Source of the DNA: Daphnia pulex
Lineage: Eukaryota; Arthropoda; Branchiopoda; Diplostraca; Daphniidae
Assembly (NCBI RefSeq): GCF_021134715.1
Contig: NC_060017.1
Coordinates: forward strand, 1,674,001 to 1,738,000
Direction: 5' to 3'
Length of the DNA stretch: 64,000 bases
The translations under genes and the position numbers were made by a program. The notes under the pieces are model-generated. The model saw nothing but the letters and a program-made list of their open reading frames with translations. It ran no database searches and was not told where the DNA came from. Below, one piece after another: positions 2,803 through 52,700 of the stretch. Each line of letters begins with the position of its first letter. Position 1 is the first letter of the stretch.

Positions 2803-5484
2803 TTAATTTTTTTCAAATTTTTTTTCGAATCTAATAAAATTCATCAAAGTAGAACGCCACTCGATGGTCTGTTTGGGAGTAGTGTCTGTACAAGGACGGA
2901 AAAATATAAGTGTTTGTGTTACTTCGTCAAAAATTTTTCGAAATGTTTTTAGATCAATTTCGTTTTCGTGATTCTTTACATCATCTTCTGTAACCTCCTT
3001 AAATTCCAATTTTGCTATTTGCGCATCGATCCTCTTTGTTTTTTCGTCACTTTCTTCTATCTCTTCCAGATGAATTTTGGCGATGTTTTCCTCGATTCTT
3101 TTTATTAAAATTTCAAATTTTTTCTTATCATCTTCAGTTGCCGGGAGAAAAAATTTTTCTTCACTAATTGATTTCTGAACCATTTTAAGTAAGTCTTCTA
3201 AATGGCGAGTCGATTTTTCGCCCTCATTCAAGAATGTCGCTCGCAGTTGCTCGCAAAGATTTCTTATCAACCAACTACCTGTTTATCAATTATAAAATTC
3301 AGAAATTAGAACTACAACAAAAAACAGCAGACGTTTTTACCTGTTAATGTGTTGCGATAACTTACGAATCCAGGGACTGTGGCTCTTATATCAAGAATAT
3401 CTGACACAGGAGGTCGTGGAATATCTGGGGGTTGTATATCTGTGGGTTGTAAATCTGGGGGTTGGGAAACAACTTGTTCAGTATGTTGAAATTGAATCGG
3501 TTGAATCCCATGACTGACGCTATCTAAATAGCCCAGATGAAACAATAAAATATATGTGTAGGCATCAACCAAACAATAATTTCATCGTGCAAGAAAACAT
3601 ATATGAATACCTGTATTAGTATTAGGCAGATTTCCCTGATTAGTGGGGTGAGGTGAAGTTTTCTTTGGAAAAATAACGCCAAATAATTTTACGCACCAAC
3701 CATATAATATGTGTATAGGATTCTGCCAAACCTGAATGATAGGTTCAAGTGGCGCTGTCGATTTTTCCAAATCTTCTTGCGATAGATTCCCTTGGCAGGC
3801 TTGAATGATCCAAATCTTGGGCTTGCCACTTAGGGAGGTTTTATTGAAGAATTGTTTCTTGGCTTTTTCAATCGATACCTCCTTACTGTCTGTGCCACAA
3901 ACTGTTCCTTCATCACCGTGTGAAAGAATGCAAACAACAAAACAAGCATACTTCTTAAACTCGTCTCTTTCCGCCAATTTGTTGATTTCGTCGCAAAGTT
4001 TTTGCGCCTTTAAGTTGTCGTGGTGCTTCACGTCAAAACCGAATTTTTCAAAAACGTCTGTTAAAGCCTTACGGTCTTTTTCGGTGCCTTTGCGGTTGTC
4101 TGCCTTCTGCAATATGACAAATTTTTAAAATATAATTCGATTTAAACCAACTAATAATAACATTTTTACCTTTTCGAAAATTTCTTGATTGAAGATCACG
4201 CACAGTCCCGGTTTTATTTCCGGTAAATCGTACAGCTTGTAGTAATCATCAGGTAAAAATTAAGCCCGACCAAGAATCGTTTCGAGAGCTGGTCTGTCTT
4301 CTGGCTTGAATTTAATCATGTCCTTTATAAGACTGACAGCTTGCTGCAATTCTTTAGCAGTTTCTGTTTGGTCACCAGTTTTATCAGACTGTACTTTAAT
4401 TTCTGGTGCTGTCCATTCGGGTTTATAGACTAGATAATCCTTATTAATGATGTTTGTCTCTCGATTGTAAACACTTCCAAATGGATGTATGCCATCGGTC
4501 AAAACGTAGTGGAAAAAGCAGCCGAGTATAAACACATCTTCGGAAGGGTGTGTTTTAATCGTTTTAATGCTATCCGTAACATTATTGATTTCAGATGTGG
4601 TAGGATGTGTGTCGTTATCAGCATCATGCTTGGAAGGATAGGGAGAAGTCCATCCTTCCGATCCTCTTTGCCCAGAATGACCAGTGTCCGTTACTAAAGC
4701 TTTACTCATTCGAAAGTCCGACACTTTGACCACGTATTTGAAGCCTCTTGTCCCGCGGTCAATCCGAGCGATCAAAAAATTACTGGGCTTGAGGTTTCGG
4801 TGGACAAACCCCATCGCATGTAAAAATGCAACTCCTTTAGTGGCTTGTCGTAAAATTTCTTTTTTTTTCAGTGATGCCTTTATTAAATCCGTGGCAATCT
4901 CATTTCCTTCCCAATCGTATCCCTTCCTATCACGAACGTAAAGATCCTCCACGGAGCAAATGCACCATTCAATTGCGACATAGCTATTTCAAATTTTTCA
5001 CATTATAACTAAAGTAATTGTAGAATCGATAAAAAATTCCTTACTAAAAGTTGTCATCCTTTTCACAGCAGAAATAACGAGTGAAATTTTCGTGCATGTG
5101 CGACGTTTTGTCTGGTAGACGAAGGAGTTCCATATCTCGTATGAACTCTTTTTTTTTCTCTACAAACTCTTTATCTTTCTCTTCACCACTTTTTGGTAAT
5201 ATATCCTTATCAAACCGTCGGATGAAGACTTTTGTTTCATTTTCAAACTTACCACGGAAAATTTGACAATTTGTCTTTGGTGTTTTAGAGAACTTTCCGT
5301 TTGATTTATAGCATGTTAATTTTCCAATATTAACTTCGATGATTTTTCCGTCCAATTCTTTAAATGAATTCACAAAATTAATAATGATTAATTTAGGATA
5401 GCTATAATATGCCGTTTCCTAGAGAAAAAAATTACCATGTTGGTTCTTTAATTTCTTTCCTTTTGGTTCCTCATCATCAGCCAT
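2803..5484 (-). CDS. Ire1-like pseudokinase-caspase fusion, copy A (in-frame stop between domains)
   Basis: Six exons with agreeing phases: 5484-5436, 5357-5045, 4983-4170, 4106-3611, 3523-3341, 3278-2803 (776 codons after the stop is counted as one). Codons 20-361 are an Ire1/RNase L-type kinase domain: IGKL start, NFTRYFCCEKDD and YVAIEWC hinge, HRNLKPSN (182-189), SDFRMSK, GSEGW. The beta3 lysine is Arg (FIRRF), HRD is HRN and DFG is DFR, so catalysis is doubtful. The rest is a caspase: GLCVIFNQEIF, NRKGTEKD, SHG with His455, QACQG with Cys496, then p10 with VSYRNTLTGSWLI and a final KQTIEWR strand. A charged insertion of about 65 residues sits inside p10. Codon 362 (4262-4260) is TAA, where copy B has Tyr. 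If the stop is read, only a 361 aa pseudokinase is made. I see no Met codon in p20 for re-initiation. The caspase half is otherwise free of damage. Function is inferred: stress or immune death signalling. Confidence 0.8.
4260..4262 (-). other. In-frame TAA at the kinase-caspase junction of copy A
   Basis: The third exon of copy A reads kinase, then TAA, then 30 in-frame codons (beginning FLPDDYYKLYDLP) up to a normal splice donor at 4170/4169. The aligned codon in copy B is TAT (Tyr, in SRYFSPVNF). A single base change explains the stop. It could be a fixed nonsense mutation, a polymorphism, a base-call error or a readthrough site. The next base is T, which is not a classic readthrough context. 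Confidence 0.85.
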
Positions 5485-6310
5485 ATTTAATTGATGTATA
5501 TATTTTGAGGTTTATATAGTAATTTAAGAGAGGTGATCACAGGAAAATCCTATATACAGATTTAGTTATATCACCGAAAATTCATCATGAACGAACAAAT
5601 GTAATGTTCAAACTTCAACTGCATGTGTCACTTAGATACTTAATTACTTATCTATGTCTGATACAATATTCTATAATATTCAAAAGAAAATTTGAATTTA
5701 CCTAAATTTGTATTCGAGTTCTCAGTTTGAATTCTCGGGACAATTTTCTTGAGTTGTGTTTAATAGGAAAACTGGGAAATTTAGAATTGAGGGTCTGCAC
5801 TTTGTAGCTAGGTTATATAGACTGAATAGGTTGCAACATATGGCAAGCCGTTCGTGCCACTTGTTTTTGTAAATGTGACGACAACGTATATGTTTTGTAG
5901 CTAAACTGAATATGAATACGTTGCAACAATCTCAAGTGGACTTTATAGAAGATCCTCTCTCTATGCAGCGTCAATGGGTTGAAACCAAAGCGGCTGCTGT
6001 CTCGCATTGTATCAGAATCACACCATTAGATGTTTGTGTCGTGTTACGTTGTCCTTGATGCAACGAAGGAGCGCTTGATTCCTAGTCTCAGACGAATCCT
6101 TATATGGCAAACCGATTTCCCAGCTGGAGGCATTTTTTCGCATTAACATAAATCTGTTTGCGAAGTATACTGTCACCAGTGTCACAGTCATTTTTATGAC
6201 GCTACAGTCTTCAGTCTCCACAACATAGTAAACTGTATGAGATAAGGGTAACACAAAGCGAAAGTTCTATGATACTAAGTTAGAATAACTAAAAGCGATG
6301 CTTATAAAAG
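5485..6310 (-). promoter_or_regulatory. Upstream region of copy A, homologous to that of copy B
   Basis: Several blocks match the region upstream of copy B in the same order: TTGCAACAATCTCAAGTGGA at 5921-5940, GGGTTGAAACCA near 5977-5988, a block of about 48 bases at 6021-6069 ending AACGAAGGA, and the CTTCAGTC/GATAAGGG block at 6207-6250. A relic of the first exon of copy B lies at about 5702-5757, with the ancestral ATG now TTG (5743-5741). The present ATG (5484) is in a new first exon preceded by an A/T-rich TATATA stretch at about 5498. Confidence 0.6.
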
Positions 6311-7278
6311 AAATACAGATGACAGTTGGAAAACTTTTTTCGTCAAATAACCACGAAAAGATACTGATATCAGCACCAATAAGATTCACCGATCAGATTT
6401 CTCGTCACCAAATTCAAATTCATAATAAATACGACATCTATTTTCAGTTACGGAGGAAATATTGATCTTATTAAGGATACTTAACATATAATAAAAATAT
6501 TTAAATTTTGAGCATACTTTGACTCCTTTTTTATGCCCTCCGGACGTTAATCTGTGTGCTGCTGACACTGCAGTTGAGCGAAAACTACTGATTAAAAGCA
6601 GCTCCCAAATTACAGGAAAAAGATGGCAGTTATCTAAGACCACAATTCCGCTAGTATAGACTGAGAAAGCAAATAATTTTTAAAAAATGTTGCGGCTACA
6701 GTACTGAATCCATTTCACAATTCAAATGAAACACTAGATTAGATGGAATTTGAACGTAAACCACCGTCTTATCTTATCCGTACCCACAGACTATATGTTG
6801 AAACATTAATCCCTTACCAAGGCGCTACATAATTTACGCATGTCATGTTACTGAAATCCATAAGAATTAAAAGAAATAATAGTAAAATGATTTTATTTCA
6901 CCAAATCCAATTCGCATTATCGACTTCTGGTCATTTTTTTTTTAATTTTATGTTTGTCTTGACTTTGTTGACCAAATTTTATTTATTCACACCTATTCCC
7001 ATTTATCAGATTTGAATATCAATAAGAATTTTCAAGTGTAATTTCCCCACACCCCATCTATCACTAGCAGTAAGAACTATGGAAAAGTTTATTTTCAAAA
7101 ATTATACCCGATTTTAGTGCAGTAAGGCACGTAGACAAAAGGAAAAAGAAAATATAGGCTAATCGCAAAACACCAAAGTAGCAAAAAAATATATTTCAAT
7201 GCTTTTTTCAGTATGTCTAAAAACCACACAAACTTTTTTAATGTTCTGGGTGGTACCGCCCCCTGTGAATTGGTCAAT
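6311..7278. other. Spacer between copies A and B
   Basis: I find no gene or repeat family here. The short open frames at 6386-6643 and 7095-7277 have no recognisable domain and start at non-ATG codons or run through A/T-rich sequence. The segment includes the 3' flank of copy B. Confidence 0.5.
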
Positions 7279-9807
7279 TCAATTTCCCTTTGAAAAAAAG
7301 GTATTTTTTAGAAATGATTTAAAGGGTGTCAATATATTATCCGGCGGTTGTGGGGGTTCTGGTGTTGAAATGGAAATGTTGGTCACTGTTCCGGGAATAT
7401 CGGCTTTTTTTAATGGAATCTTGTCACTCAAAGACGCTCTCCATTCGATAGTCTGCTTCACTTCAACCCCTTCCGTATCATTGGGATTTAACTTCATATA
7501 AATCTTTTCAGCAGTAATGTGGTTTTGCACGCTTTTGAGGATATCTTCAAGTGATTTTTTTTCCTGGTTTGGTTTCGTTTGATCCTGGTTCAAATATTCG
7601 TTTGTCAATTCACGGCACAGGTAATAAATCAGGTATGATCCTGCATTATGAAAATAAACAATCACAGCAGACTGAACTAACAATTAAACAATTTTTTAAC
7701 AAACTGAAAAAACAAAAGAAAATGCGCTCTTATAATTATACCAAACTTTGGGCCTCGAAATGATGGATAACCAGAAATAGAAGCTCTTATATCAAGAAAA
7801 TCCATCAAAGGTGGTCTTTTCTTGTTCTCTTCTGACATAGTAATAGTCTTGATCTTTTGTTTCAAACAAGCCGTTTTGTCTTCCGGTATTCCTACTATAG
7901 ACAATTCGTTGTTTAAATCAGCATTGTTCGTATACATATATTTGAAAGATATTTAGTAAACCTTTCGGCTTCTTAATCGGAACAGGCATTTCATAAAACT
8001 CGTGTGGATGTGGAACGATATTACCGCTATCTGACTCGGAGGATGTGTAGCCTATTACATACATTTTTACATTATTCTTTATAAATAAAATCATGTAAAT
8101 AACTGAAATAACTTTCCTACCATGTGAATCCTTTGCTTGTATGGGGTATTGAATTTCATTACCCTGGCAGGCTTGTATGATCCAAATTTTGGGCTTGCCG
8201 TTTAGAGTGGGGCAGTCATTGCTGTTGAATTTATACTTGAGTTCATTGATCTTAATGCTTTCACCATCGACTCCTTCAACGACACCCTCATCTCCATGTG
8301 ACAGGATGCAAACAACAAGACTGGCGTAAGAAGAGAAATCTTGCTTGGCCAAATCTTGGACGCAGTAACAAAGATCCTTGGCTTTCAAATCCTTGAAAAT
8401 TCTCACGTCAAATCCCAATTGCGTAAATACATCTTTCAAAGAATTTTCGTCGAAATTAGTTCCAGTGCGATTATTGCCTTCCTGAAAAAAGTTGACTCCA
8501 AAAAATTAATGGGCGTTAAAATAAATATTATCTATCAATAAGAAATTGATTACAGTTTCGAAAATCTCCTGGTTGATTATGACGCACAGCCCCGGTTTAA
8601 CTATCGGCAGAGGCAGATCGTAGAGCTGGTAAAAATTAACCGGTGAAAAATAGCGTGATGTGAAGACCTCCTCTAGAGTGCATATATCTTTCAGCTGAAA
8701 TTTAATCATATCCTTTAGAAGAGCGATGGCTTCTTTTTCAATGTTTGGATTCCAGTTATCGCGATACACAAAATATTTAGAATCATTGATGTTATTCCCA
8801 CGAGTGTTGCTGTTATCGTCGAATGGATGTTTGCCATTGGTTAAAACGTAATGGAAAAAGCAACCCAGAATAAATACATCGCCGCATTGGTAGGTCGAAG
8901 AATCTACTTCGGTACGAAGTGCTGCCGGATCCGGGTAGGTCCATCCCTTCGACCCTGTAGTACCGGAAACACTGGGACGTTCAACCGGATTTTTGCTCAT
9001 ACGAAAATCCGACAGTTTGACCAAGTATCGAAATCGGTCGCATCGAAACTGTTGAAGCTGGGCGATCATAAAGTTACTGGGCTTGAGGTTTCGGTGGACA
9101 AACCCCAGCGCATGTAAAAATGCAACTCCTTCGGTGGCTTGTCGTAATATTTCTTTTTCTCCCAGTGATTTCTTTATTAATTCCGTGTAAATCTTTTCAT
9201 TCGCAAAGTTGGTTCCTTTATTACCTTCGTAGAGGTCTTCCACGGAACAGATGCACCACTCCGTGGCGACATAGCTGGTGGAAAATTATTTTTGCATTAC
9301 ATAACCTTTTTATGAAATTTTAAACGAGAAAATGAGGCCGTTACGTAAATTCACCATCTTCTTCGCTGCAAAAATAACGAATAAAATTTTCGTGAAGATG
9401 TTTTGGTTCTTGAAGGACGTTGATGTCTCTTTCGATTGGATTAATAATCGGTCGACCCTTGTGAATGGTCGAATAAAAACATAAATCTTTGGATAAAGTG
9501 TGCCATCAATACAATGAAAGTCTTACTTCTTCTGGGCCTGGTTCTTTTGTTAACGAATGATTCGAACTGGCTGTTTCATACCGTCGTACACAGACCATCG
9601 TTTTGTTTTCAAAAATCCCGTGGAAAATTTGAGTTTTAAATGTAGCGAGATTTTCTCCGGTTTTGTATGGACGACTTAGTGATTTATCAATGCTTAGTTT
9701 CCCTATGCGCTCTAAATTAATTGAAATCAACTAAATGTAATGTGTAATACAACAGAATTTTGTCATTTACCTAAATTTTGATTCGAGTTCCCAGGTTTTT
9801 GAGACAT
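7279..9807 (-). CDS. Ire1-like pseudokinase-caspase fusion, copy B (intact)
   Basis: Eight exons with agreeing phases: 9807-9771, 9711-9527, 9457-9345, 9274-8554, 8481-8121, 8051-7962, 7891-7742, 7640-7279, giving 672 aa and no internal stop. Residues 13-335 form an Ire1/RNase L-like kinase domain: HENFIRYFCSEEDGEF, YVATEWC, HRNLKPSN (172-179), SDFRMSK (DFR 201-203), GSKGW. The beta3 lysine is Arg (VCVRRY), the catalytic Asp is Asn, and DFG is DFR. No KEN ribonuclease follows; the chain runs straight into a caspase. Landmarks are GLCVIINQEIF, NNRTGTNFD, LSHGDEG with His414, and KIWIIQACQG with Cys457. A linker of about 50 residues contains IPED, a plausible caspase-8-like processing site, then p10 with SGYPSFR, GSYLIYYLC and KQTIEWR. 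His, Cys and the substrate-pocket Arg residues are present, so the protease may be active. The kinase part could be a sensor or dimerisation platform; this is inference. About 1.8 kb separates it from copy A. Confidence 0.85.
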
Positions 9808-18286: not shown

Positions 18287-21049
18287 TTACTTCTCAGCTT
18301 CTTGTCGAGTCGGCGACTGGAACTGGTAGCTCTTATGGACATGGGCCATTTTAAATGAACGATCCCGTTCGGAAATCATTCCCACTCCGTCGCCGTTAGA
18401 AGTGCTGAGTTTACTGGCCTGGTCGACAACGGATTGCAGGTGACTAGGACTGGCACCGTCAGCCAGCAAACTACTTGAACCGCTAACCAAGGTGACAGCG
18501 AATCCCGGAACAGGTGTGGCCTATGATAAGACAGGTAAGGTTATTTAAGGTTGAATAATATCAATTTTATCTGGAATGATGCTCAATTACCGTCATGGCC
18601 CGGCTTTCGCCTTGATGGCTTCGATAAGAGTAAAGCACAAAATCAGAACGCAGGGCGAACCAGCGCCGCTGCCACGTTTTGCCACGGGTCTTGAGACTAA
18701 GGTATCCGCTCAGCACGGAAGGCGTCTCGACATCCACCTGAAATGAAGAATCCAGAATGTTAAACTTGGTAAAATAATGCTGTAAGATATTATTCCAAAC
18801 AAACCTCCAAAAGACTTGATCGCAGACTGGGCGGTGAAGGAGCCGAGTCGGGCGTATGAACGGGCGAAATATTTGTCATTTCTCGACGTCCAGACGAAAC
18901 GAGGACTTCGTGACAAGGGTCACAGACTCTCCACGACTTGGTGCTATCGTAAGGTAAGGGAAGTTTATGATTGGAGCACCGATTGCAAGCCACCTATCAA
19001 ATGAATTTCAATAATCTTTCTCCTTCCAATTTTAAATGAATGTTGTCGTATTTACTCGTCCACAGGAGTAGCAGTGATGTTTGCGCTTCATGACAGAAAA
19101 CTGTCCTTGGCAGTGGAAACATCTTGTAACGGAATCCATCCGAACGAGCGTAGGGGCCGCCTTACCCAGCGATGAGTCACTATTATCGGCATCTAAACTG
19201 GGTGGTCTGGCTTGTTGTTGCGACTGCATGGGTGAGATCCTGAGCGAAGATTTACGACGTGTCAATTCGGTCATGGCAGCATAAAGGCCGTCGATCCAAG
19301 CTTCCTTCTCCTCCTGAGTGCCCGTGTACAGTTCAACCGTTTTGGCTCCTTCACGCAAGTAGAACGTATTGGCCGTTTCCAGGTTGTCACCTTCCAACAC
19401 TTCCACATTAGAGACGGTGAAACGAGCACGAACGCGGTACGGTGGTAAACCGGCCCCGCCAATGACCCGATTAGGGATAAGTCGTGGTGAGCAGAGCAAC
19501 AGCAAATCGGTGAACTAAACGCATTGGACGAAGCGAAACATTTGAAAAAAAACTTTTATGGTTGGAACATAAAACTGAATGTGAGAAATAATAATAAAAA
19601 AAAAAAACGTACCAGAAAGAGATAACGTTCTTGGTGGTCGCCGCTCCTGGCCGATATTTTGACGATTTTGCCCTCCTTCACCAGTTCGCGTGTGGGCGAG
19701 ACGAGATCAACGGCGCCACCTAAACTCTCCTGAATTTCCAGCAGCTGTTTGAACTGGTCAATCTTTTTCATGGCTTCGTTGGCGTGATTAGCCGCTGTCG
19801 AAACCAAATGTAGCGCTTCTATACGTAAATAAAACAGACAGAAATTCGTGTCACATCGTTATCGCCGCGCTGACATTTGGGGGAATTATTACTTTCGGTT
19901 TCTGCTCGGTCGGCCGAATCTTCTGGCAGCCTCCTCAGATAATCACGTAATAACATTTCGTAGCGAGGAACTCGTTGGATCGGCGTCAGCATGTGATGTT
20001 GAAGACTCAAATGGCCGCACTGGGGCAATTGCTGCGTGTTCAAAAATACATTTCCCATTAGCTTCTCTGACACTGGGCAGACTGTTTTGGGCTTTTATTA
20101 CCTGAATTTCGTCGACGATGGCCACAAAACGGGGCGATTTCAGACTCATCGTGCTGATCAGATTCGTTGCGTGATCGAAATTGCGGACATATTCGGCGTA
20201 CATTTTGAGAAACGGAGCGAAACTCGTCATAATATCACCAATTCTTCGTTCTTGTTGCTCCTGCTCTTCCCACTCTCTGAGTCGCTCTTCCAATCTCGGT
20301 AGAAAAAAATCGTGGTGCAATTTAAAAAGCGATTTAATGTTGGAAAACATTTGCGGAATCAAATCCTGTGCAAACATTCCGTGCGCTCGGTTTTCCTGGT
20401 CGATCCGAAACTGGAACACCTTCAAACGCAATCATCAAATGACATTATTCATTCGTAGTGTAAAAAAAAAAAAAATTAATAATTTACCTGATCGAGCAAG
20501 TGTAAAACGTCAACATAAGTTCGTTCAGTGTGTAAAAGTTCAATTGCGACACGATGCGCTCGATCACGACGTGGATCTCCTTCCACGACCAGGATGCTAG
20601 CCCTAGGATCATTAAACGATCCTTCGTCAGAGGGTAGCCTGGAAGACTCTTCCGGATCGTTGGTGGAATCATCCGCTGGCTGCTCCTCGGCAGTAGTATC
20701 GTGCACGACGCTGTTGCGAGCGCTGATGCTGTCAATGTACAAGATACTCTGCGATGGACTCAGCGTCGATTCGCCAAACGCCGTAGCCGAAACACGAGGA
20801 CTGATCCCGTCGATTCCACTGTCGGCATCTGAAGTAGTGGACGATGTGGTCGTCGCTTGGGAGGAAGACAATCCGGATGAGGAAGAAAGCCGAGCGGCTG
20901 AAACTCGATGACCACCGTGAGCTCTCCTGTTGGCGGGTGGTTCTTCCTTACTGGTTTCTTCATCTTCCTCTTCGCTTTCTGTTTCCGACACGGCCTCATA
21001 GATTCCGTCGGATGGATAATTGGCCTCGGTTGTTTCCTCCGTCCGGATC
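18287..21049 (-). CDS. FGD: FYVE, RhoGEF and PH domain protein (FGD family), 5' end unresolved
   Basis: A guanine nucleotide exchange factor of the FGD type, which activates Cdc42 at membranes. In order on the minus strand: an acidic/Ser-rich N-terminal region (21049-20600); a DH domain beginning [18 protein letters not shown] and including [19 protein letters not shown] (20560-19900); a first PH domain (about 19800-19280, with ERYLFL and [11 protein letters not shown]); a FYVE zinc finger ([41 protein letters not shown] at about 19140-18880); and a second PH domain ([20 protein letters not shown] at about 18710-18630). The C-terminal tail ends RQEAEK. The exon start at 21049 follows TTCACACAG and needs a preceding exon in phase 2. 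A tiny exon at about 21760 (ATG CCA GG|GTAATG) would fit that phase, but a better donor overlaps it, so the start stays open. It is convergent with GRIPAP1. Confidence 0.88.
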
Positions 21050-30959: not shown

Positions 30960-33761
30960 TCAAGTGATTGGGGATTTGTTCACTTGCAATCGCCGAGCAA
31001 TCCTTTGACAGCGAGGACATGACGCCGGGTTGCTCCAACAGGGACGATGAAAGCAGCTACCGCACTGACTGCAGCGTATTACCGTGTCGACTTGAAATGG
31101 AAAGATCACTTCAGAAGAACTGCACTTCTCACAAAGGAAGCCGCGAGCTTTACACAACTAAGAGTTACATGGAAAATAAAAAGGTTACAGCTGATTAGAA
31201 ATGAAAATGGCAAACAAATACGACATACCTCGCAATGAATAATGTGATTCATGCCACTTGAAACGATTTGGCGTAAAAGCTGGAATAGTTCACCCGAATT
31301 AACTCTAGTCAAATCATAGAGCGAATAAATCTCGGGATCTTCAAGCCAGTCGGCTGATTGTTTTCGGAAATCTTCCCAAATACTAAACAAAAAAGTTAAA
31401 ATATTAGAAGACCCCAAAATAAATAAATAACAGCGACATACTCTGTGCCGAATCGGCAAATACGTAGGAATTCTGCGACGTTTATAAGCTGCAACCGTAG
31501 TTCAAGCACTTTGTTCAATTGTCGGCAACGACGGTACAAAAGGGGATTGATGTAACCCAAACGGAAAAGTGAATCAAACCACATGCGTTCCAGCAGGTCA
31601 TAGGAAAAGTTTGATACAGGATACCTAAAAAAAAAAAAAATCAATTAGATCTTAATTATTAACCAGAGCGGAAAACGTTTATACTTTCTAAAATCCCATT
31701 TCTTGAAAATCCGACTGGGAACGACGAAAGTTTTGTTAGAGTGACAGGCTGTGCAGAAATAACGTCCCAAGTAGTGACAATAACGGAAGTTGTGACTGTG
31801 TTCGGGTTCAACTCTCATGCCACACCCTGCACAACGGTAGTTCTGTTTGGCCATAACGACCTTGAGGCTATTGGTAAAATGCACGATAAAATTATCACAA
31901 ATGCTATCACGTATTGATGATCAGTCGTGCTTTCTTACTTGGGTGATGTGTAGACAGCGAAGACGATTTGAGGGCGTGGCGGTGCCCACTCGTTATTTCC
32001 GCGGAGGCTTGTCATCTGTCCTTCGTCAATTTCGTTTTCTTTTAATTGCATGAAGGGATCGTCAGGATTGACGGGCCAACTTTGAGGCATAGGTAACAGC
32101 TACATAGAATAAAATTAATTATTAGTGAATATGTGTTGCTGGGATTAGACGGGCTGTTAGCCTGTTACGTGTTGTGGAGCATCTTTCTCTGAGACGAGCC
32201 ACTCCATTTCAGATTCGTTTGGTAGCCGGAGTTGACTAAAATGACCTAAAAGACTAAGAGCAATATTTTCGGCAGAGACGGTAGATTCATTTAAAGGAGT
32301 TGAAGGCGTAGAAGTGGACACTGGTGAAGGAGGTGATGGACTAAACAGGGCCCGTCGGCTAGTCGATTCACTGCTGATTCGATGTTGGTTGACGGCAATA
32401 GGAGCGCTAGGCATTGCTGCGGCAGAATCTGACGCATTTTCAGTGAGAAAACCCGAACTCATTCGAGACACTAATCGCGAATGGACGCGTTTCAAACGAG
32501 CAAGTTTTCGGGATCTACGTCTTTCTTTCTCAATTGCAGAGCAAAAAGAAGTAAATGATATACCTGCATCCAGAAACGATTAATCTTATCAGAAATTCTC
32601 AATTGTAATTTAGATAAAAAATACCAGAATCAATATGTTCCATTGCGCCATTCTTTTTAAAATCCGCAAACAGAATTGCTGAAGCCAACGAACTCGAGGG
32701 AGAAAAAGGAGGGGTCATTGTGGAAACACTAGATTCGGGTGAAATGCTACAGTCTGTAGCCGCATTGGAAACTAACAAAGAAAGAAAAAATGTAAGCAAA
32801 GCAATCGATGAGATTAATGATTAAACTAACCAAAATGTTTATCACTAAATGCTGATTGTAATTCGAATTTCATTTGACGTATTTCTTCGTCACTCTCATC
32901 GTTGAGATCACTTTTTATTAACTGGTCGTCTTCTTCTTCTTCTTTACTGTCTGTCCATTTGTAGAATTTTGTCTAAAATGAAATAACAAATTAATGCAAT
33001 TGTCATTTAAATGCTATTTTACTCATCCTACTTCTTCAATGGCAGCAATCATGGCTTCAGAAACACTGAAATGTGCATTTTCCCTATCAAGCTCTGGGCC
33101 AATTTTCCTTGATTGATTGGACATCAAATAATCCACTAGTGATTGACCTCTTTGTCTTCTATTGATTAAGAGTAAAAATCATCAGTTTTTTCTGATGGTG
33201 GTTTTGTAGGCTGATTTCTGACATTACTTACTTTGGATACTCATGCCCTCCAGCAGCCACTACAATAGAACTTCCACCATCATCCAAGAAACGAGGCCTA
33301 CCAGGCTTTTTTGAACTGTCTGTAAAACAACAAAAATGGATTATCTATAAATCTTTAGAGATAAAATCTTAAAATATACCTTGTACATTTCCAGAGACAT
33401 TCCCAACTTGAATGAATGGGGAAATTTTATGTCTATCAGAGGAAGCGGAGCTCAGGCCAGTGCAGTCTGAAAAAGATCTAACATGTTTTGATCTGTGCTG
33501 GTGAGTGGGTTGTGCTTTCACTACTTCATTTGCAGGTTTAGAATTTAGGTCATCAGAATTTCCCGTAGCCATCTCTTGTTTGATTTCAATTTGATCTGTT
33601 GTACATAACTTTTCATTTACATTTAATTCAGTAGCTGTATTTCCTAAACAAGATTCTGATGCAGAGATTTCTCTGGTTTTAACTGGAACTAGGGCAACTT
33701 TTGGGATGCATCCGGTGTTCACAGCTGAGATGTTTTCGTTTTCTCTCTCGATCATAGTCAT
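30960..33761 (-). CDS. RUBCN: Rubicon-like autophagy/endocytosis regulator (RH domain)
   Basis: Rubicon binds the Vps34 PI3-kinase complex and Rab7 and restrains autophagosome maturation. The start is ATG at 33761 (MTMIERENENIS). The N-terminal half is low-complexity Ser-rich with an acidic segment (KEEEEEDDQL). The C-terminal half is a complete Rubicon homology domain: QNYRCAGCGMRVEPEHSHNF, RYCHYLGRYFCTACH, RIFKKWDFRKYPVS, EDPEIYSLYDLTRVNSGEL, CRARGFLCEKC, then CSQCGSCFHRPCW and CPRCQRI as zinc ligands. It ends QVNKSPIT. About ten exons with introns of 55-80 bp. I see no N-terminal RUN domain upstream in the window, so the architecture is closer to vertebrate Pacer (RUBCNL) than to full Rubicon, unless an upstream exon is missed. 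Confidence 0.9.
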
Positions 33762-37090: not shown

Positions 37091-39735
37091 ATGGGAAGAC
37101 ACAATAAAAGGTTAGTCAAATAATTAGTTTAAATCCAAATTCTCAGTTTAAAATAACTATAATAATTACATCGTGTCAACACTCAACAGTAGGTCGCGTT
37201 CGAGAGATAAGGACTCTAGAAGTCGACATCGTGATTCTTCGTTGAGACACAGAGAAGAATCTGCAAGGAAGCCCTCATCCAGTCTAAAAGAAAAAGAGTA
37301 TGAGGACCAAAGAAGAGACAGCAAATACCAACAAAGGAGGTCAAGGTAGTGACAATTAAAAATTTTTAAATATCAGTTCCCTATTTAGTTTTTCGGTTTG
37401 CATATCTAGGTCTCCAAAGAATACAAAAGAAAAACCTAGTAGAAGTAGAAAACAATCCCAAAGTCCTTCTGATTCCAGTGATAGTGATGGAAAACTTGTT
37501 ATGAACAAGGACTTATTGGAAAAATTAGAAAAGGAACGTCAGAGAGTTTTGGCAGACAAAAAGAAATGGAAGGAACAGGTATTTTAATAACAACAATTTA
37601 ATTTATACTGTATGTGATGTTTTCTTTTGAGACCAGCTGCCACATTAATTGATATTATAGTTTCCTTAAGGTTATATGGATGATGTAGCTTGTCTTACTA
37701 CTTCTCATTGTAATAATTCCCTTTTTTCCCTCCCTTAGATGAAAGCTCTTGAAACTCCAGAAGAGAAGCGAAAGAGGAGGCTATTGAAGAAGGAAAGCAA
37801 AGAAATGAAACGAAAAGAGCAGATGGGGTGGGACAATGAACTTCTTCAATACACAAATTCAGATAATCCTTTTGGAGATTCTAATTTGCTTGATAAATTT
37901 GTATGGAAAAAGAAATTTGAGAAAGAAGGTGAGAAACTTTAAGATTGTTTAAATTAGAAAATGTTAACAACCCTTGTTTTTTAGGGAGAGGTGACATGAG
38001 CCAAGAAGAGATTGAGCGGGAGCTTAGAATGAAACAATTGGCCAACAGAGATGAACTTGAAAAGGTTAAAGCCAGAAGGTTAGAAAGAGAAAAAGAAAAA
38101 GAAGCCAGAGAAGATGAGACAGCAGATCTACAACGTACCAAAGAAGCTGAACAATTCAAAGAATGGCAGCAAAGTGAAGATCAATTTCATTTGGAGCAAG
38201 CAAAGTTACGTTCAGCTATTCGCATTCAGGTACATACAAGAACATTTTGCCATTAAAATTCGTGTCAAGTATTCATAATTTTGTTTTATTATGCAGGATG
38301 GAAGAGCAAAGCCTGTTGATGTCTTGGCAAAATATATAAATTCCGAAAATGATCCTGAAGCTGTGGAGATGAACGAACCTTATTTTTATCTCATGGGATT
38401 GACATTGACTGATTTAGAAGACTTAGTAGCCGACATTAAGGTAAAGAAAAACTATAATTATTTTTAATCTTTATAATTAATCTCTAACATTTTTTGAATC
38501 AGGTGTACATGGAACTGGAAAAAGAATCTAGTAATTTGGATTACTGGAATGATTTAATGGTTATTGTCGAGGATGAAGTCCGAGCTATGAGAAAAATAGA
38601 ACGATCCAAGAAGAGTGATTATGAAGCTGCTATGGGTCGACAAGAGGGTATCCATACAGCCGTAGCCCAGGACGTAGCTAGCATATTTAAAAACAAGACA
38701 GCTCCTGCACTGTTGGCTCTAAAAAGCAACATCGAAAAGAAGATCGCTGCTCGCCAGGAAGGTGTTGACATTTCGTATTGGGAAAGTCTTCTAAGCCAGC
38801 TTAAAGCCCATATTGCACGGGCACGACTACGCGATCGCCATGGAGCTAATTTAAAACGAAAACTGGAACTTCTCAAAGCACAGCAAGGTCTCATTGACAC
38901 TGCTGCTGCAGAGGCATCGCGTTCGGGGGTTAAATTGGAGCCTGAAGATGAAGACGCAAGTGCGGAAGCTGCTGCAGAACAACCTAGCACTGCTGAGCAG
39001 GACGAAGAAGAGGAAGAAGAAGCAGGTGGTGCAGATGATGAGCTAGAGATCCGAGGCCAAGCGGAGAGGGACCTCCTAGAACCTTGTTTAGTTGCTTACG
39101 AAACGGGTCGATACAGTCCAGTGTACTTGGAACCCAGCCAGATGGAACCAACACAACTCATCTACACTGAAGAAGATGACTTGGAGCGATTAGAGTTTGC
39201 CCGTGCCCGTGTACAAGGCCGTGGAGTGGCCAGCGGCGCCACCGAATCGGAAGTATCATTAGAAGAACGAGCAATGCGTGGTGAAGCGTTAAAAGGCATG
39301 TCGGCCGATGAAGCAATATTTTCCGTTGAATCGGCTATTGACAAACCAGTTTACCTGTGGTCGGATAAATACCGACCTCGCAAACCTCGGTACTTTAATC
39401 GCGTCCATACTGGTTTTGAGTGGAACAAGTACAATCAGACCCATTACGACATGGACAATCCGCCTCCAAAGATTGTTCAGGGTTACAAATTCAACATCTT
39501 CTTCCCTGATTTGATCAACAAAAACTCTACACCTCAGTACACCATCACGCCCTGTGCCGACAATAAAGACTTTGGTATCTTGCGATTCCGCGCTGGCCCA
39601 CCTTATGAAGACATTGCCTTCAAAATCGTCAATCGTGAATGGGAATATTCTTACAAGAAAGGATTTCGTTGTCAGTTCCATAACAACATTATGCAACTTT
39701 GGTTCCACTTTAAACGCTACCGATATCGTCGTTAG
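37091..39735 (+). CDS. cactin: Cactin
   Basis: Cactin is a conserved nuclear protein linked to the spliceosome. It was found as a partner of the IkB protein Cactus and is needed for splicing and sister-chromatid cohesion. Seven exons: first exon 37091-37109 (MGRHNKR), last exon about 38503-39735. The N-terminus is an Arg/Ser-rich, Lys-rich region (SRSRDKDSRSRHRD). Next is a charged helical middle (PEEKRKRRLLKKESKEMKRK; GDMSQEEIERE) with the conserved block FVWKKKFEKEG. An acidic stretch (DEEEEEEAGGADDELE) follows. The C-terminal cactin domain has KYRPRKPRYFNRVHTGFEWN, GYKFNIFFPDLI, FGILRFRAGPPYEDIAF, REWEYS and the invariant end FKRYRYRR. The stop is TAG at 39733-39735. It appears complete and ordinary for the family. 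Confidence 0.97.
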
Positions 39736-40054: not shown

Positions 40055-42201
40055 TTAGAGACCGTTAACTCCTTCGGTGATTTGAGAAATGCCATTGACA
40101 TAAGGCTTGGTTTTGGTTGGGCTGTCGAGCTTCATTTCCCCTTTGGCACCTCCCGTCGGGCTTGCAACGTGAAGGGGCTTTGCGAAACGATGTTCGAGCA
40201 TCATGTGGTTGACCGGAGGTAAAGCAAGGCAAGCACGGAAAATATTTTCGATGCTAGATCGCTGGCGGTTGAGTGAGTTGATAACGGGTGCTCCTTCTGG
40301 AACGAGAGGCGCCTGAAGGAAATATGAAACAATTATTATTTTGTAAAGTTCAGGTGAAAGAAATATCTGTTACTTTACCTTGCACAGATAACTGAGAATT
40401 GAGAGAACTGAATGGAAAGGCTGGTAAGTCGTTTGGTTGGGTCCGCGGAATGTAATCCGTTGGCAGATTTCAGTTAAGATGACCAGATCAAGAATAATGG
40501 GGCTGGCCAACAAAGAATCTTCACAGGTGTTGTGGATAACCAATGTGTTGTGACCGCCCATCATTATTTCAGAGGTATATTCATCCATTGCTCTTTTGCT
40601 GTCACCTAATTAATCGATCGACACTAGTTAACAAATGTTTAGTATTTTAGAATACTAAAAATGAACTCACCAACATAAGGAACGTATTTGATCACAACAG
40701 TGTGATCGGGTTTTTCTCCTGGCTTGTAAAGGACTGGATTAGATTCCACCATGTCGTCGACAACGTTACTTTTAGAAATCTGAGGAGCAAAATTCAATGA
40801 ATTACCTGGTAAGAATAAAAAATTAAAAGTAATGAACCTCTTTGGAGCGGAATTGTTGTGGGGCAGAAAGATTCTTGCCATCATTGTTTCCCAAATGATT
40901 GTAACTGACAATTGAAACAGGTTTAAGACCGGCACTGACCAGGAAGTCGACCAGCACAGACTTGAGTTTAGTTTGACCCGACTTGAAATCGTCACCACCA
41001 ATAAATACATTGGCCTTTTCGGCCATTTCAATACAACCGGGGACAAAAGTGTTTTGAGGCGATCCATTGATAAATGCACACTATAAATTTAAAAAAAAAA
41101 AAAAAATGAATGTCAAACAAAGTTCATCATTCAGCAAAGTCAAAGGTTCAACATACCCCTTCCAGGATGCTTGCTACAGCAAATAATGTTGATGGTGCGA
41201 TTTCGCTGGCATCCTCCTTGATGGAACGCATTAAATGCTCGGCTGTGTCGTTCAGTCCTGGAACAATATCAGCAAAACGCTCGGTATTGGCAGTCCAGAG
41301 CAGTATAACTTTGTCTAAAGCATGCTCACTATTAAAGTAATCAAAAATTAATTGGACAACAGTTTCGGATGTTGAATCGAATTGAACTTACGCCCTGAAT
41401 TCACGAATGTCCTTGCGGATCTGTTCAATTTGCTCTCGCTTCGTGCCACCCATCACATTATCGGCCCTCTCTGATTGATTAGCTGCAATAAAGTCTGGCG
41501 AGTAGATTGACGGCCTGGGTTTCATCTTTTGCATATAGGGACGCAATTGTTCCTTTAAGAAAACAATTCAATTACAGTTAATAAGTAGATCAGCTACAAT
41601 TTTAAGGAATAAAGCTTCCGAAGATCTCCAACCTGCAGCGAAGGTTCAAGAACCCGAGCTCTATCCATGGCGGAAGCTAAATCCAGCGATGAAATGTCCC
41701 ATCCATCGAGAACAATATCGTCTGGATGGACCATGGGCAACAGGTCATGGAAAGGGATATAAACGTCCCGGCCATCAGACCCCATGCCCAATGAGACAGT
41801 CGATGACATCATCAAGGAGCCGTAGTAGTTGGCCTCCTGGTGTCCGTTGCGCGTTGGCCACGACAAGGCTAGCTTGTTGGCAAGAACGGCGGCTGTCACA
41901 GTCGTTCCATTATTCCCGCCCCAGCCAACCAACATAACGCCAAGTTTCGGGACTTGACGTTCCGTCCGGATTCGTAGACGGGAGGTATTTGGAGTAACCT
42001 GTTAAAAAAATAAAAATACCAAAAATGTAACACGCATGCTCAGAATGAAGTTCGGCTGGTTAAAATGGCGATCAACTTGCACGTTACCTTGTACCTTCCG
42101 TCGGACGCCGGCTCCACGCGGGATGTACAGTAATCATAATCCGCTTCAATGTAACGATCGCCGTACGTTACGTTTGGGCTGTCAACTTGGAATTTGGCCA
42201 T
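40055..42201 (-). CDS. Inos: Inositol-3-phosphate synthase
   Basis: Converts glucose-6-phosphate to myo-inositol-3-phosphate with NAD as internal redox cofactor; it is the first step of inositol synthesis, in the cytosol. About eight exons starting [20 protein letters not shown]. The NAD-binding Rossmann motif is [20 protein letters not shown]. Further conserved blocks are [103 protein letters not shown] and the late block LEHRF. The C-terminus ends [10 protein letters not shown]. Length is close to that of animal homologues. Start and stop both agree with the family. Confidence 0.97.
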
Positions 42202-46704: not shown

Positions 46705-49700
46705 TTAGGTTTTGGTTTCGGCAACGTTTGGGTTGATTTTGGCTTCACCGCATCCGTCAACTGTCGGATTTCGTCTAATGTGCATCCGAGCGTTGAAAAG
46801 ATTCATCGAGTTCTGTTGCGGCTGGTGGTTATCTTGATCCCGACCGGTCGATAATGGAGCAGACCCCGAAGGTGTCCAAACTGTGACTAGATGTCCCTGG
46901 CTGGAGATCCAGGCTGCTGTGCCGTTGCTTATCGATGCGTCACTAGACACCAAAACCCGCTGCTGATGGGAATCCAGGAGCACTTCCGATTTCTCTTCAC
47001 TGACAACTCTGCTGGGCTTGATGTGGGTGACTTCCAGGTTATTCTGCTGGTGCTGCTGCATCGTCGTCGGCACCAAGTAGGTGGCATCTTGCGACGGAGG
47101 AATAACGTCCATTCCATTCTGTTGAGTGATGACGGCAGCGCCTCGCGGCCGTTGATTGAGTCCTTGTCGCGGCTGTCGCGGACCTATTGGCGATCAAACA
47201 CGGAACAATGCACGTCGTCGTACAATATAAGAAAAAAGCAGGCACAATCGGACAGTATTATTTAAGAATCCGGCTGTCGCTAATTTGATCAGCCCTCAGA
47301 AGAAAAAGGGGATAGAGTCTATATAGGGTCGAACGTAATCGAATTGGGCTACGCCAAATACCAGATAATATTGAGAGGCTCTGCTGCCTATACTAGTTAT
47401 CCTGCACGTACTGAATAAAAGACTATATAGCGTTCGGTCTTACTAGTCAAGAAATTGCGTTCGAGGAAATCCGAAGGGACTATTGAATACATATACTACC
47501 GCAAGACATCGGCATCGCGGGAGGTATATAGCAAGAGAACGTGACGCGCCGCCAGCTATGAGACAAGATTATTTCCGGTGTGTTAAGTTTTGTCCCCTCA
47601 TCGCTGCAATAAATATTAAGGCTAGAGTTTTCCCTGCAGCCAACACAATTTTTTTTTTTTTTTTTTTTTGGTTCCGCTTCGTCGGGAATATCCTCGGTTT
47701 CTTGGAGTTCATACTTCCAATAGCGATCCATCCAGGATTGTTCAGCAGCAGTCATCGAATTGAACAGCCATGAACCCACTTGCAATGAGCTTGAATTACG
47801 TTCTTAATGCTATCGAATTTAAAAATAGATTGATTTTTTAAAAATATTATATGAAAACCAATTTTTTTAAATAATAAACGCCAACAGCGAACGTGTGCGT
47901 AAGGAGTGGGGTGGGGGGGGGGGAATAAGCCAATAAGGCGAAGCTTTGTATAGAGAGCAGAATATTATAGAGATCCCCGTTATTCCCTTTGACATCAAAG
48001 GCCATATTTTGATTAGTGCACCATACAAATAGTCTTTCTATTGGTTCTAGTTTTCTAGATAAAAAAGAAAAATTCAGCCATCCAAATATGATGCAGGTAT
48101 TGTATACTTTCTGAAGCCGAGTCGAAATGCGATTCAGTTGTGACTTGTAGCAGGATCACCCAAATCGGATTATATACAATCTAAATTCACTTTCTGCACG
48201 CTCACACACAATGTGCAGCACTGCACCTATAGAAGGAGATGACGGTTCGATCCATACACACTTGTCCTTCCCTTCGTCATAGTTTCGTCATACGAATACC
48301 AAGAATATGGGAGAAGTTTATAAACTTGACTTGACTTGAAAAAAATAAAGTCTTAACGGACGGGTATATACGAGGGGCAGCATTTCCCCTTTGAAACGGT
48401 ACAGCAAAGCACAAAGAAATTGCGTCCTGAATTGCAATTCAATTTGCTTGAAAATGTTCAATAATTGGAATATTTGCCCCGGCGCTTCTTTTCAGCACAG
48501 GCACGTACTGTACCATGCATGTGTTCAGTATATTTTCTGTTTGATTTGGCGGAAAGACGACAAATGACTTTAAGCTTCAAGCCTGAGATCCTTAAGCAGG
48601 TTCAAAAGAAGATATAGGACGTCACGCGGGATATTCAAATTAGCCGACCCGGATCTTAATTGAAGCATCGCGTACGGAGATGTAGAGTATATCTCCACAT
48701 ATACAGCACTGCTCTGCATAACCTCGTCTGGGTTTCGTGCGCGTGTATGCTGTGTAACTGTGATGATAGTTGCAAACTTTATTCGATTGCACTTGACCGC
48801 ACAATATCATATTGGCCATTCTATAATAATACTTTTGTTATTGTACTACGGGACTTGCTGCCTTTGCTGGCTGTATAAAAGGATAAATGCTCGTCCAGCG
48901 GTTGGATTCGAAGTGAGAGCGGATATAGGAGCAATCACAGAAATGGGATTTGGGGACCAGTTTTGGATGTGACGTTTGCCCCGGTTTGCCCTCGCTGGGA
49001 AAAAGCTTCCAAAAGCTAGAACAGCACTCAGAGTCTGTCGGTGGCTGCTGCTGGCTTGTTTGCTTTCGTCCATGTTATGTCCGAACAAGAAAAGCAACAA
49101 CGAATAAAAGAGTTTTCCGAAAAAGAAAAAATTTGTTCTTGGAGAGAATGAAATGAACCGCGAGTAATGGGAACTATATATAATGTAGCCAGCCACTGTT
49201 ATCCCGAAAGCATCAGACAATTTGTTCGTTTCTATTCCTTCCCATTCAAGGTTTACGGTTTTCAGTCACGTTTCAGACAGCACTTTGAAAATGATTGGCT
49301 TATTACTGTACCTGTTACAAAGTCGGCTCGATCGTTACGGAGAATCGGAGTCGATCGTTGGCCCGCCCTTGTGATTATAATAGCCGATCCGGCTGTTGAC
49401 GCTATGGTCAACGGTGATCTTTTCCTGCAGCACAAAGTTGATCTAAAGTGCTCCCGAAATCTGCACACACACACATAAAAAAAAATATAAGAATAAAATC
49501 CCGATCGATTATGGAAGCAGCAAAATGTATTAAAGGATTCTTGGAACTTGTGCGTTTTATAATAGGTTTAATTAGGCACGTCTCGAAATGTACCTGGTGT
49601 TCATGTAATAGTAGACGAGTGGGTTGATCATGGTGTTGCTCATGGCTAGCCAGTAGAAGGAGAGGAAAATGTGCTGTGTGTATTTGTAGGAGATGACTTG

Positions 49701-52700
49701 ATCGTCGATAAACTGGTAGACGAAGTAGCCGTGATAGGGCAGCCAGCAGACGACGAATAGCGTCACGATAACCATAAACATCCTCACTACCTTTAGATCC
49801 CGCACGCAGCCATAAATCATTGTGAAGATATTACACGGGTGATTGGCGGAGGCGAACCCCAGTCTCATCAATTTCAAATGGGTCGGTATATACCTTGTGT
49901 TTGGATTGGATGGACTCTGCTTGACGTTGGTTCTGCTCACCGATGCTTTTACCCCGCCACAAAACGTAGCCCATTCGCGAGTAGCAAGCGCCCATCACAA
50001 TCACCGGGATCAGGTAGGTCGACACCGTGAAAACAATATTGTATCTGGGCGTCATCATTAATTGGAAAGGGATCTCAATTATTTTCGACCACTCCGAATG
50101 ACGACGCACAACCTAAATAAATAAGAGTCTATGGCTTACATGAAATCCTGCTGGGAAACGGAAGGGACGCCGTCCGGCCATACGATGATGCATACGACTC
50201 GTACTTCACCGCCCCGGTAACTGTCCAATAAATAATTTTCGTTAGACTACTTACCGTACGTACGTACATATAATACATATTTGAAACTATGAGTGCTATG
50301 TATACTACCTGTGCGAAAGCGTCTGAGAGTAGAGAAGGCAAGGGACGGCCAGGATGCAGCTGGCCAACCAAATGAGACTGATGGCGATCCGGGCTGTGCT
50401 TTTACTCATCCTCGGTCGCAGTGGATAGACAATGGCGATGTAACTATTGAAATAATGAAACAAAGACGACATATTATGTACCATGCATGTAACATCGTCT
50501 AACGTGCACTGCGGCCTTGTTCCAATAATCATTCTCAAGAAGAAATCTCGTGTAATCTCTAAACTTATAGCCAAGGGAAGCTAATAATAGATGACGGGCG
50601 TTCGCAGCAAGGAAGGACTCAGCATCTTCTAGAATTTATTTGGCTTCATGCGGAGAATAAGGGAAACAACGTATGTCCAGTGTAACGAAATCCGAATAAG
50701 ATCTGGAAATTAGACGATGACGCACATCACTTTGTCGAGTGTCACTATAATGGATGATGTACCAAACCACTCAACCGGAAATGCCATTATCCGAAAATCG
50801 TTCAGCTACGAATAACATGACGTGTTCTGTTATATAGTAGCTTAGTTACCGTAGCGCATTTAAGCTGGACGCTGGAAATAAAGGCTTTCTAAACGTATTG
50901 TGATTGTCCAACGCTATTATTTTATCATTTATTGATGAAATCACTCTCTGACGCTGTAAAAAAACGATATCTATTGTCGTTACTGGGCGTGTCATTTTAT
51001 AATTCATCCATACTAAGGAATATTATACTTTTCTTTTTAGATTTAGAAATTCTGGAAGGGCAGTAGGCTAGTGTATCGATTAACCTGAAGTAAAAGTCCT
51101 GGCAAAAAGTTATTAGTCTAGCTTCGCTCTCGACCGCTAATAAAGTCGAGCGTTTACAAATGATTTTTTAAATTCTACTTTGTGTACCGTAGTAGGTATA
51201 GTTAAACTTGCAAGTTAATTTGATATAATGCATTGGGTTAGGAAAAAAAAAACTACTCGATATTGGATTTTGATCTTCGTTCGCCTTTCCAATCTAATCA
51301 AATTAATCATGTCAGCAGCTCGAATTTAGCACAATCCGACACAATCCCATCAAATAATGCACTAATTGAACTCCCAGGGAAAATAAAGACAAAATCAATA
51401 CCATAGAAAAACACATTGTTATGCACGAGATGAATGAATGATGAATTCTGAAATTGCCATACTTGGGCTTTTATAAGCCCTGACATAAAGCTGATTGAAG
51501 AATTTTCTACGGCTGTCGGATTCTTTTGTTCGCTGAAATACGGAGGAATCCGATATACGGACTTAGTTTTACAAACTGTTCGTTCCTTATTAGATGCAAC
51601 AAGGCAAGATAAACTTCCACAAATCATTTATAGGCATAAGGCATATTATGTTGTAGGTTATACTCCTGTCTATTTTTGCTACTGCAATATAAATTATTAC
51701 GTCTTTTTATTTCCTGCACTAATTAATGTTTCTACGCTACAGAATGTCTCTGGCAAATAAACAGCTGCGTTATCATCGTGTTATTGATGAAGTAATGTAA
51801 CCAAAACGTCAGAGTAATATGTGATGTAGGCTCCTAGACAATGGAAGTTATAGAATCGAAGTTTCCGCATTTTCCGATTTTTTTCCACTTTAATGGATCG
51901 CGTAATGGTTAGTCGCCAAGCAAAAAAAAATGTCACATTTCTTTCTAAAAAGTTATCATTGAATTTTCCCCCGTGATTTTTTTTTTTGTCTGTCTTTGAG
52001 TCTGAACTGCAACTGAACTGCAGCATCAATAGAAAGTTTTCCTGTACAGAATTTCTTATGATTGTGTAAAAGTGTGAATTTCTCACGGCGGAGTGACGCC
52101 GTTATTCCATGAAATCTAAACTTCTTTCTATTAGACACCCGAAGTTCCTTGAGAAAGGGGAAAGAAAAAGCCAAATGTGTACCCCCTCTGCCGTCGAGTC
52201 TTCCGCTGTTAAATCAGCGTAGAATAGAGTCTATTTCATATGTCCGGAACTGGTGGGTGCTGCTGTCTTTGGATCGATAGCTTATAGATAGGTTACATTA
52301 CATACAGACCAAAATTCTGTATAGCTTTATACCACGTACGTCTATGGAGTTCCGACAAAGATTTCTTCGCAGTCTCCTATCCCACTGTTATTAACTACAA
52401 CATGGGTACCGTATCATAAATATAGGCTACTTTCTACTTTGCCGCTAAACTTTTTCTTTCATCCAAACTTTTTGTTTTCTTCTTTTGATTCTTTACACCA
52501 ATCGATATGTTTGTTCTTACCGATCGAAGGAGATGGCCACCAACGTGAAGACACTGGCTGCCACTGAAACGTTTGCCACGAAGTTGTTGACCGTGCAGTA
52601 GAAACCACCGAATGGCCAGTGACTGGAAGTAACAGGTATATACATACACTTATGTGATAGCACACGCACGATCGGAGGAGCATTTGTACAATTTGGTTTT

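Follow-up and report, generated by a model that had tools for sequence, protein, structure and literature searches.

In this study we describe two tandem genes, gene B and gene A, in a 64,000-nucleotide stretch of the Daphnia pulex genome (the window: RefSeq assembly GCF_021134715.1, contig NC_060017.1, positions 1,674,001 to 1,738,000 of the forward strand; coordinates below are counted from its first letter). Gene B is one open frame through an IRE1-type pseudokinase and a complete caspase. Its model, rebuilt from the sequence, runs on the minus strand from 9807 to 7279 and comprises eight exons that encode 673 amino acids (aa) with no internal stop; gene A, its interrupted neighbour, lies on the same strand from 5484 to 2803 and has six exons. 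All internal introns of the two models are of the GT-AG type and keep phase. An earlier note, made from the letters of this DNA, had placed the pair at 2803..9807, and these positions equal the ends of the exon models: the stop codon of gene A ends at 2803 and the start codon of gene B lies at 9807. The motifs it had read (HRNLKPSN, SDFRMSK, GS-GW, SHG, QACQG, SYR/SFR and GSW/GSY) are indeed present in both genes. Gene B is built as follows.

9771..9807, minus strand: exon 1 with the start codon (ATG at 9807, GT donor)
9527..9711, minus strand: exon 2, kinase N-lobe with Arg in place of the beta-3 Lys (exon model and alignment)
9345..9457, minus strand: exon 3, kinase N-lobe from helix C to beta 4/5 (exon model and alignment)
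8554..9274, minus strand: exon 4, kinase from the hinge through the C-lobe (HRN, DFR) and, in the same frame, caspase strand 1 (exon model, Pfam)
8593..8646, minus strand: kinase-caspase junction, aa 322-339 (gap between the Pfam matches; purifying selection over 31 codons)
8121..8481, minus strand: exon 5, caspase p20 with RTGT, SHG and QACQG (exon model, Pfam, PDB sequence match)
7962..8051, minus strand: exon 6, inter-subunit linker (exon model)
7742..7894, minus strand: exon 7, linker and first part of p10, FLDIRAS..SFR (exon model, Pfam)
7279..7640, minus strand: exon 8, remaining p10, tail and stop codon (exon model, Pfam)

In gene B the kinase N-lobe starts close to the N-terminus according to the alignment, Pfam places a kinase domain (Pkinase, 1.6e-21) at aa 82-321, and a caspase domain (Peptidase_C14, PF00656, 1.9e-39) at aa 340-613 covers p20 and p10. 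The 18 residues between the two matches include YQLYD, which we take to resemble the usual beginning of a caspase, so that the caspase follows the last kinase helix immediately, at the point where the KEN ribonuclease domain starts in IRE1. The proposal that a caspase stands in place of KEN is thereby borne out, since the KEN profile (Ribonuc_2-5A, PF06479) matches none of the seven fused loci described below. It has three matches in the genome, including one full-length KEN in two exons at C1:1.957 Mb, in what by eye resembles a canonical IRE1 with a luminal part, and one partial match on contig C4. The two domains had also been thought to be joined by splicing. They are in frame in gene B, but the junction lies within exon 4 and not at a splice site; kinase C-lobe and caspase strand 1 are thus encoded by the same exon, which is a strong argument against separate mRNAs.

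When the kinase exon of gene B was compared with the genome (133.2 Mb, 13 contigs), seven loci stood on top with best matches of 143-516 bits each, and the next locus reached 53 bits. A separate search with the p20 exon returned the identical seven (104-273 bits, next 85), so that the fusion cannot be put down to chance. The loci are spread over three contigs, with genes B and A on C1 and the other five as follows.

C5a, contig C5, 2.78 Mb: open, 646 aa
C5b, contig C5, 2.74 Mb: broken by frame changes in several places, including within p20
C12b, contig C12, 6.92 Mb: open, 637 aa; first coding exon not found; one GC-AG intron
C12a-1, contig C12, 5.06 Mb: broken by several frame changes; SHR instead of SHG
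C12a-2 (L042), contig C12, 5.06 Mb: one frameshift, at the kinase/caspase boundary

Open across the junction are B, C5a and C12b (three of the seven, 637-673 aa), and in the last two the boundary again falls within one exon; the model of C5a requires a 46-nucleotide intron in p10. C12a-1 and C12a-2 are arranged like B and A in order and orientation, and in its kinase piece C12a-1 differs little from B (non-synonymous divergence, dN, 0.11; synonymous divergence, dS, 0.24), which suggests that the pairs were probably duplicated as a unit. Three pattern matches were noted in viral contigs, none of which encodes a relative of gene B exon 4.

Gene A shows the same architecture in interrupted form.

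5436..5484, minus strand: exon 1 (exon model)
5045..5357, minus strand: exon 2, kinase N-lobe (exon model and alignment)
4170..4983, minus strand: exon 3, interrupted, with the kinase C-lobe followed by caspase strand 1 (exon model, Pfam)
4260..4262, minus strand: in-frame TAA in exon 3, after the last kinase helix and before the caspase (sequence and model)
3611..4106, minus strand: exon 4, caspase p20 with SHG and QACQG, open (exon model, Pfam)
3341..3523, minus strand: exon 5, linker and first part of p10 (exon model)
2803..3278, minus strand: exon 6, remaining p10, tail and stop codon (exon model)

Scanned apart, its halves match Pkinase (1.7e-18) and Peptidase_C14 (4e-42), so both domains that had been proposed are found by profile in gene B and in the two halves of gene A. 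Both genes had been read as running in frame from kinase to caspase; this holds for gene B over its 673 aa and is wrong for gene A because of the TAA at 4260-4262. Splicing past this codon was considered, and the sole short flanking GT...AG pair noticed by eye, without a splice predictor, spans about 35 nucleotides and breaks the frame. The sister copies A and C12a-2 carry one lesion each, both at the kinase/caspase boundary, and their caspase exons are open. Their position at the boundary may be accidental, or a product consisting of the kinase alone may have been selected for.

The kinase is of the IRE1 type, as had been claimed: IRE1 entries fill the top 16 places among the PDB sequences matched by the gene B kinase, the next entry following far behind, and the predicted fold of the C-lobe likewise points to IRE1 (Foldseek ranks 1-6 and VIA ranks 1-13), by a small margin. 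RNase L is not among the listed matches of these comparisons as nearest kinase, which excludes nothing. The assignment as a pseudokinase also stood, catalytic residues having been lost: the Asp of HRD is Asn, and the Gly of DFG is Arg or Ser, in all seven fused kinases, and the beta-3 Lys is lost in all six that could be aligned (Arg in five, Glu in one). The residues that mark an active kinase (beta-3 Lys, HRD Asp, DFG Gly) are therefore not those of the fused kinases. The kinase search gave 121 rows, eight of them from the seven fused loci and 113 from elsewhere; we examined 22 of the latter with 1.5 kb flanks and call them related or IRE1-like by their match to the fused kinase, L021 alone having been compared with PDB. 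HRD is kept in 18 of these 22 loci (best open reading frame, ORF, of each), HRN is found in one, and three gave no pattern match. Set against the complete loss of the HRD Asp in the fused loci, this marks the fused group as a clade of derived pseudokinases within a set of kinases most of which are not. In a tree with canonical IRE1 and the 22 related kinases, the seven fused kinases form one clade (100/100).

The caspase part of gene B finds its best PDB matches in caspase-3 and a caspase-3/6/7 ancestor (2.8e-27). RxGT and the Arg of SxR (Arg residues of the P1 pocket), SHG, QACQG and the p10 core are kept in all five modelled caspases; C5a has AYR at the SxR site and retains the Arg. Judged by profile in gene B and by the catalytic His and Cys in the five modelled copies, the fused proteins are predicted caspases of peptidase family C14A, enzymes that cleave after Asp.

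Kinase, junction and caspase are under purifying selection. Between B and C5a, the NG86 estimates of dN/dS are 0.28 for the kinase and 0.16 for the caspase, rough ratios given the high dS; several pairs other than this one and A-C12a-2 were saturated. Over the 31 junction codons the same comparison gives nine synonymous and ten non-synonymous codon changes (dN 0.21, dS 3.57, where the high dS again makes the ratio rough).

What might such a protein do? We regard it as about evenly balanced that gene B and its open relatives are one-protein cell-death or immune proteases, in which an IRE1-derived pseudokinase serves as caspase prodomain and activation occurs by assembly. In favour of this reading are the open frame through both domains, the lost kinase and kept caspase residues and the purifying selection described above. 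The dead kinase would act as the assembly module, associating either with itself or with one of the related kinases, among which ankyrin repeats are common, and assembly would bring two caspase domains together so that they are activated by induced proximity. The model is an analogy to IRE1 and RNase L, where assembly activates KEN (PMC4536996, PMC4718504), RNase L being a known case in which an IRE1-type pseudokinase serves as dimerisation scaffold (PMC4718504). Artificial dimerisation of a caspase fused to inducible dimerisation domains is sufficient for apoptosis, as cited in PMC2575513. The earlier note had further suggested that a ligand or stress could drive dimerisation; for a ligand this finds no support, since gene B has no recognised sensor domain.

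Several observations weigh against an assembly-activated protease. Pfam finds only kinase and caspase in gene B and recognises no luminal or ankyrin sensor. Four of the seven loci (A, C12a-1, C12a-2 and C5b) are broken, and the evidence is the genomic sequence of one genome. The residues of the IRE1 back-to-back dimer (PMC4536996), mapped on an alignment of six fused copies by human numbering, appear only partly kept: R594 in none (Lys in two), R617 in four, D620 in one, R627 in five and Y628 in all six. Together with the lack of a recognised sensor domain, this also speaks against a simple copy of IRE1. Moreover, when 27 rows were used for the caspase tree, three long-branch rows grouped with C12a-2 and so kept the fused rows from forming a single clade, although such a clade is not rejected (approximately unbiased test, p 0.117). 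The tree comprises 21 rows from 20 fetched caspase loci, out of 46 Pfam caspase matches in the genome that were fetched in part, and six fused rows; left out were L060 and L063 (no profile match), L055 and the second piece of L053 (below 60 aa), and C5b (broken within p20). The three long-branch rows, L058, L059 and L061, are divergent caspase-like ORFs with EQCQ for QACxG. Without them the fused rows fall on one side of a branch with weak support (78/63), and this reduced tree again pairs B with C12a-1 and A with C12a-2, as the kinase tree does. A single origin of the fused caspases fits the kinase tree, and the caspase tree is no proof of it.

Caspase prodomains can also restrain caspases. 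The pseudokinase might be an inhibitory cap that a trigger removes or rearranges, assembly not being the activating step. The partial loss of the IRE1 dimer residues would fit such a cap, as would the tight and conserved junction, in which 21 of 31 residues are identical between B and C5a. However, the nearest relatives of the kinase act by assembly (PMC4536996, PMC4718504), and we consider a cap unlikely.

Rather improbable, in our view, is that the genes belong to a decaying lineage-specific family, in which the fusion formed, was duplicated and is being lost, so that the open copies have little function. The stops and frameshifts in four of the seven loci could be read in this way, as could the relaxed kinase of the A-C12a-2 pair (dN/dS 0.69; caspase 0.42). 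Against it, B, C5a and C12b have stayed open over their full 637-673 aa at high synonymous divergence, the B-C5a ratios are low (0.16-0.28) and their caspases retain the motifs.

It is also conceivable, if doubtful, that the fused genes belong to a modular network derived from the IRE1/RNase L design, in which IRE1-like kinases with ankyrin repeats, as possible sensors, pair through their kinase domains with dead kinase-caspases as executioners, similar to the sensor-helper pairs of plant nucleotide-binding leucine-rich repeat (NLR) proteins; the boundary-stopped A and C12a-2 would then be kinase-only brakes. In 11 of the 22 related loci the kinase is followed closely by an ankyrin-repeat ORF in the same orientation, and Pfam confirmed the repeats in all five tested. 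These loci are:

L021, L022, L025, L027, L030, L031, L032, L034, L035, L036 and L038: kinase followed by ankyrin-repeat ORF

Their kinase-then-ankyrin order is the reverse of that in RNase L, and a KEN match is found at none of them. Three ORFs behind the kinase L023 had a WD40-like look and gave no Pfam match. No caspase was found beside the 22 related kinases within the 1.5 kb flanks, and no fused-type kinase near the other caspases at the 20 fetched loci.

That kinase and caspase are separate neighbouring genes merged by annotation is very improbable: gene A is interrupted at the boundary and the models come from genomic sequence, but the boundary is itself conserved and lies inside one exon in B, C5a and C12b, which rules out a separate-gene reading for these three.

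If indeed the fused genes are assembly-activated proteases, the IRE1/RNase L kinase module would be able to drive not just a ribonuclease but also a protease, and a stress-kinase scaffold would be linked to caspase activation without adaptors. As such they make it testable whether assembly of a pseudokinase alone is sufficient to start cell death, as a possible self-contained death switch. They also draw attention to a large kinase family, so far little described, with a possible role in immunity or stress responses.

Compared with IRE1 (ERN1), the fused proteins have an IRE1-type kinase by sequence and predicted C-lobe fold with the effector directly after it, but they carry a caspase for KEN and have lost the catalytic Lys, the HRD Asp and the DFG Gly, and gene B has no recognised luminal sensor or transmembrane part. 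RNase L also has an IRE1-type pseudokinase directly before its effector (PMC4718504, PMC4536996); it differs by N-terminal ankyrin repeats, KEN and canonical ATP binding, whereas the fused kinases have Arg or Glu at the beta-3 Lys. The TNFR-caspase and LRR-caspase of amphioxus likewise wire a signalling domain straight to a caspase and skip the adaptors (PMC2575513), although with other front domains, and the available text of that paper describes no kinase-caspase. Oyster DSRM-caspases have an unusual prodomain and are proposed viral sensors (PMC7836458); their prodomain binds double-stranded RNA, and the word 'kinase' is absent from that text. Since direct shortcuts from receptor to caspase are already known, we see the novelty of the fusion in its kinase front end. 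Among the titles and abstract starts of the literature matches listed, with subscription journals mostly uncovered, there was no kinase-caspase protein. A 2009 survey of D. pulex immune genes listed eight caspases, five of them in clades unique to this species (PMC2685406), and some members of its clades II and III may be the fused genes. The survey set the prodomain aside and nowhere mentions a 'kinase domain' (PMC2685406); the fusion could have stayed hidden for lack of a prodomain analysis.

Elsewhere in the window no RNA family (at gathering score) or tRNA was found, and the following protein-coding features were noted.

19032-20431, minus strand: exons for FYVE and RhoGEF that seem to belong to a single Rho guanine-exchange factor gene
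31106-31501, minus strand: exon with a Rubicon homology domain
38488-39735, plus strand: end of a Cactin gene
40639-42001, minus strand: Myo-inositol-1-phosphate synthase exons, the match at 40639-41088 being below the Pfam cut-off
49572-49994, minus strand: exon of a rhodopsin-family receptor

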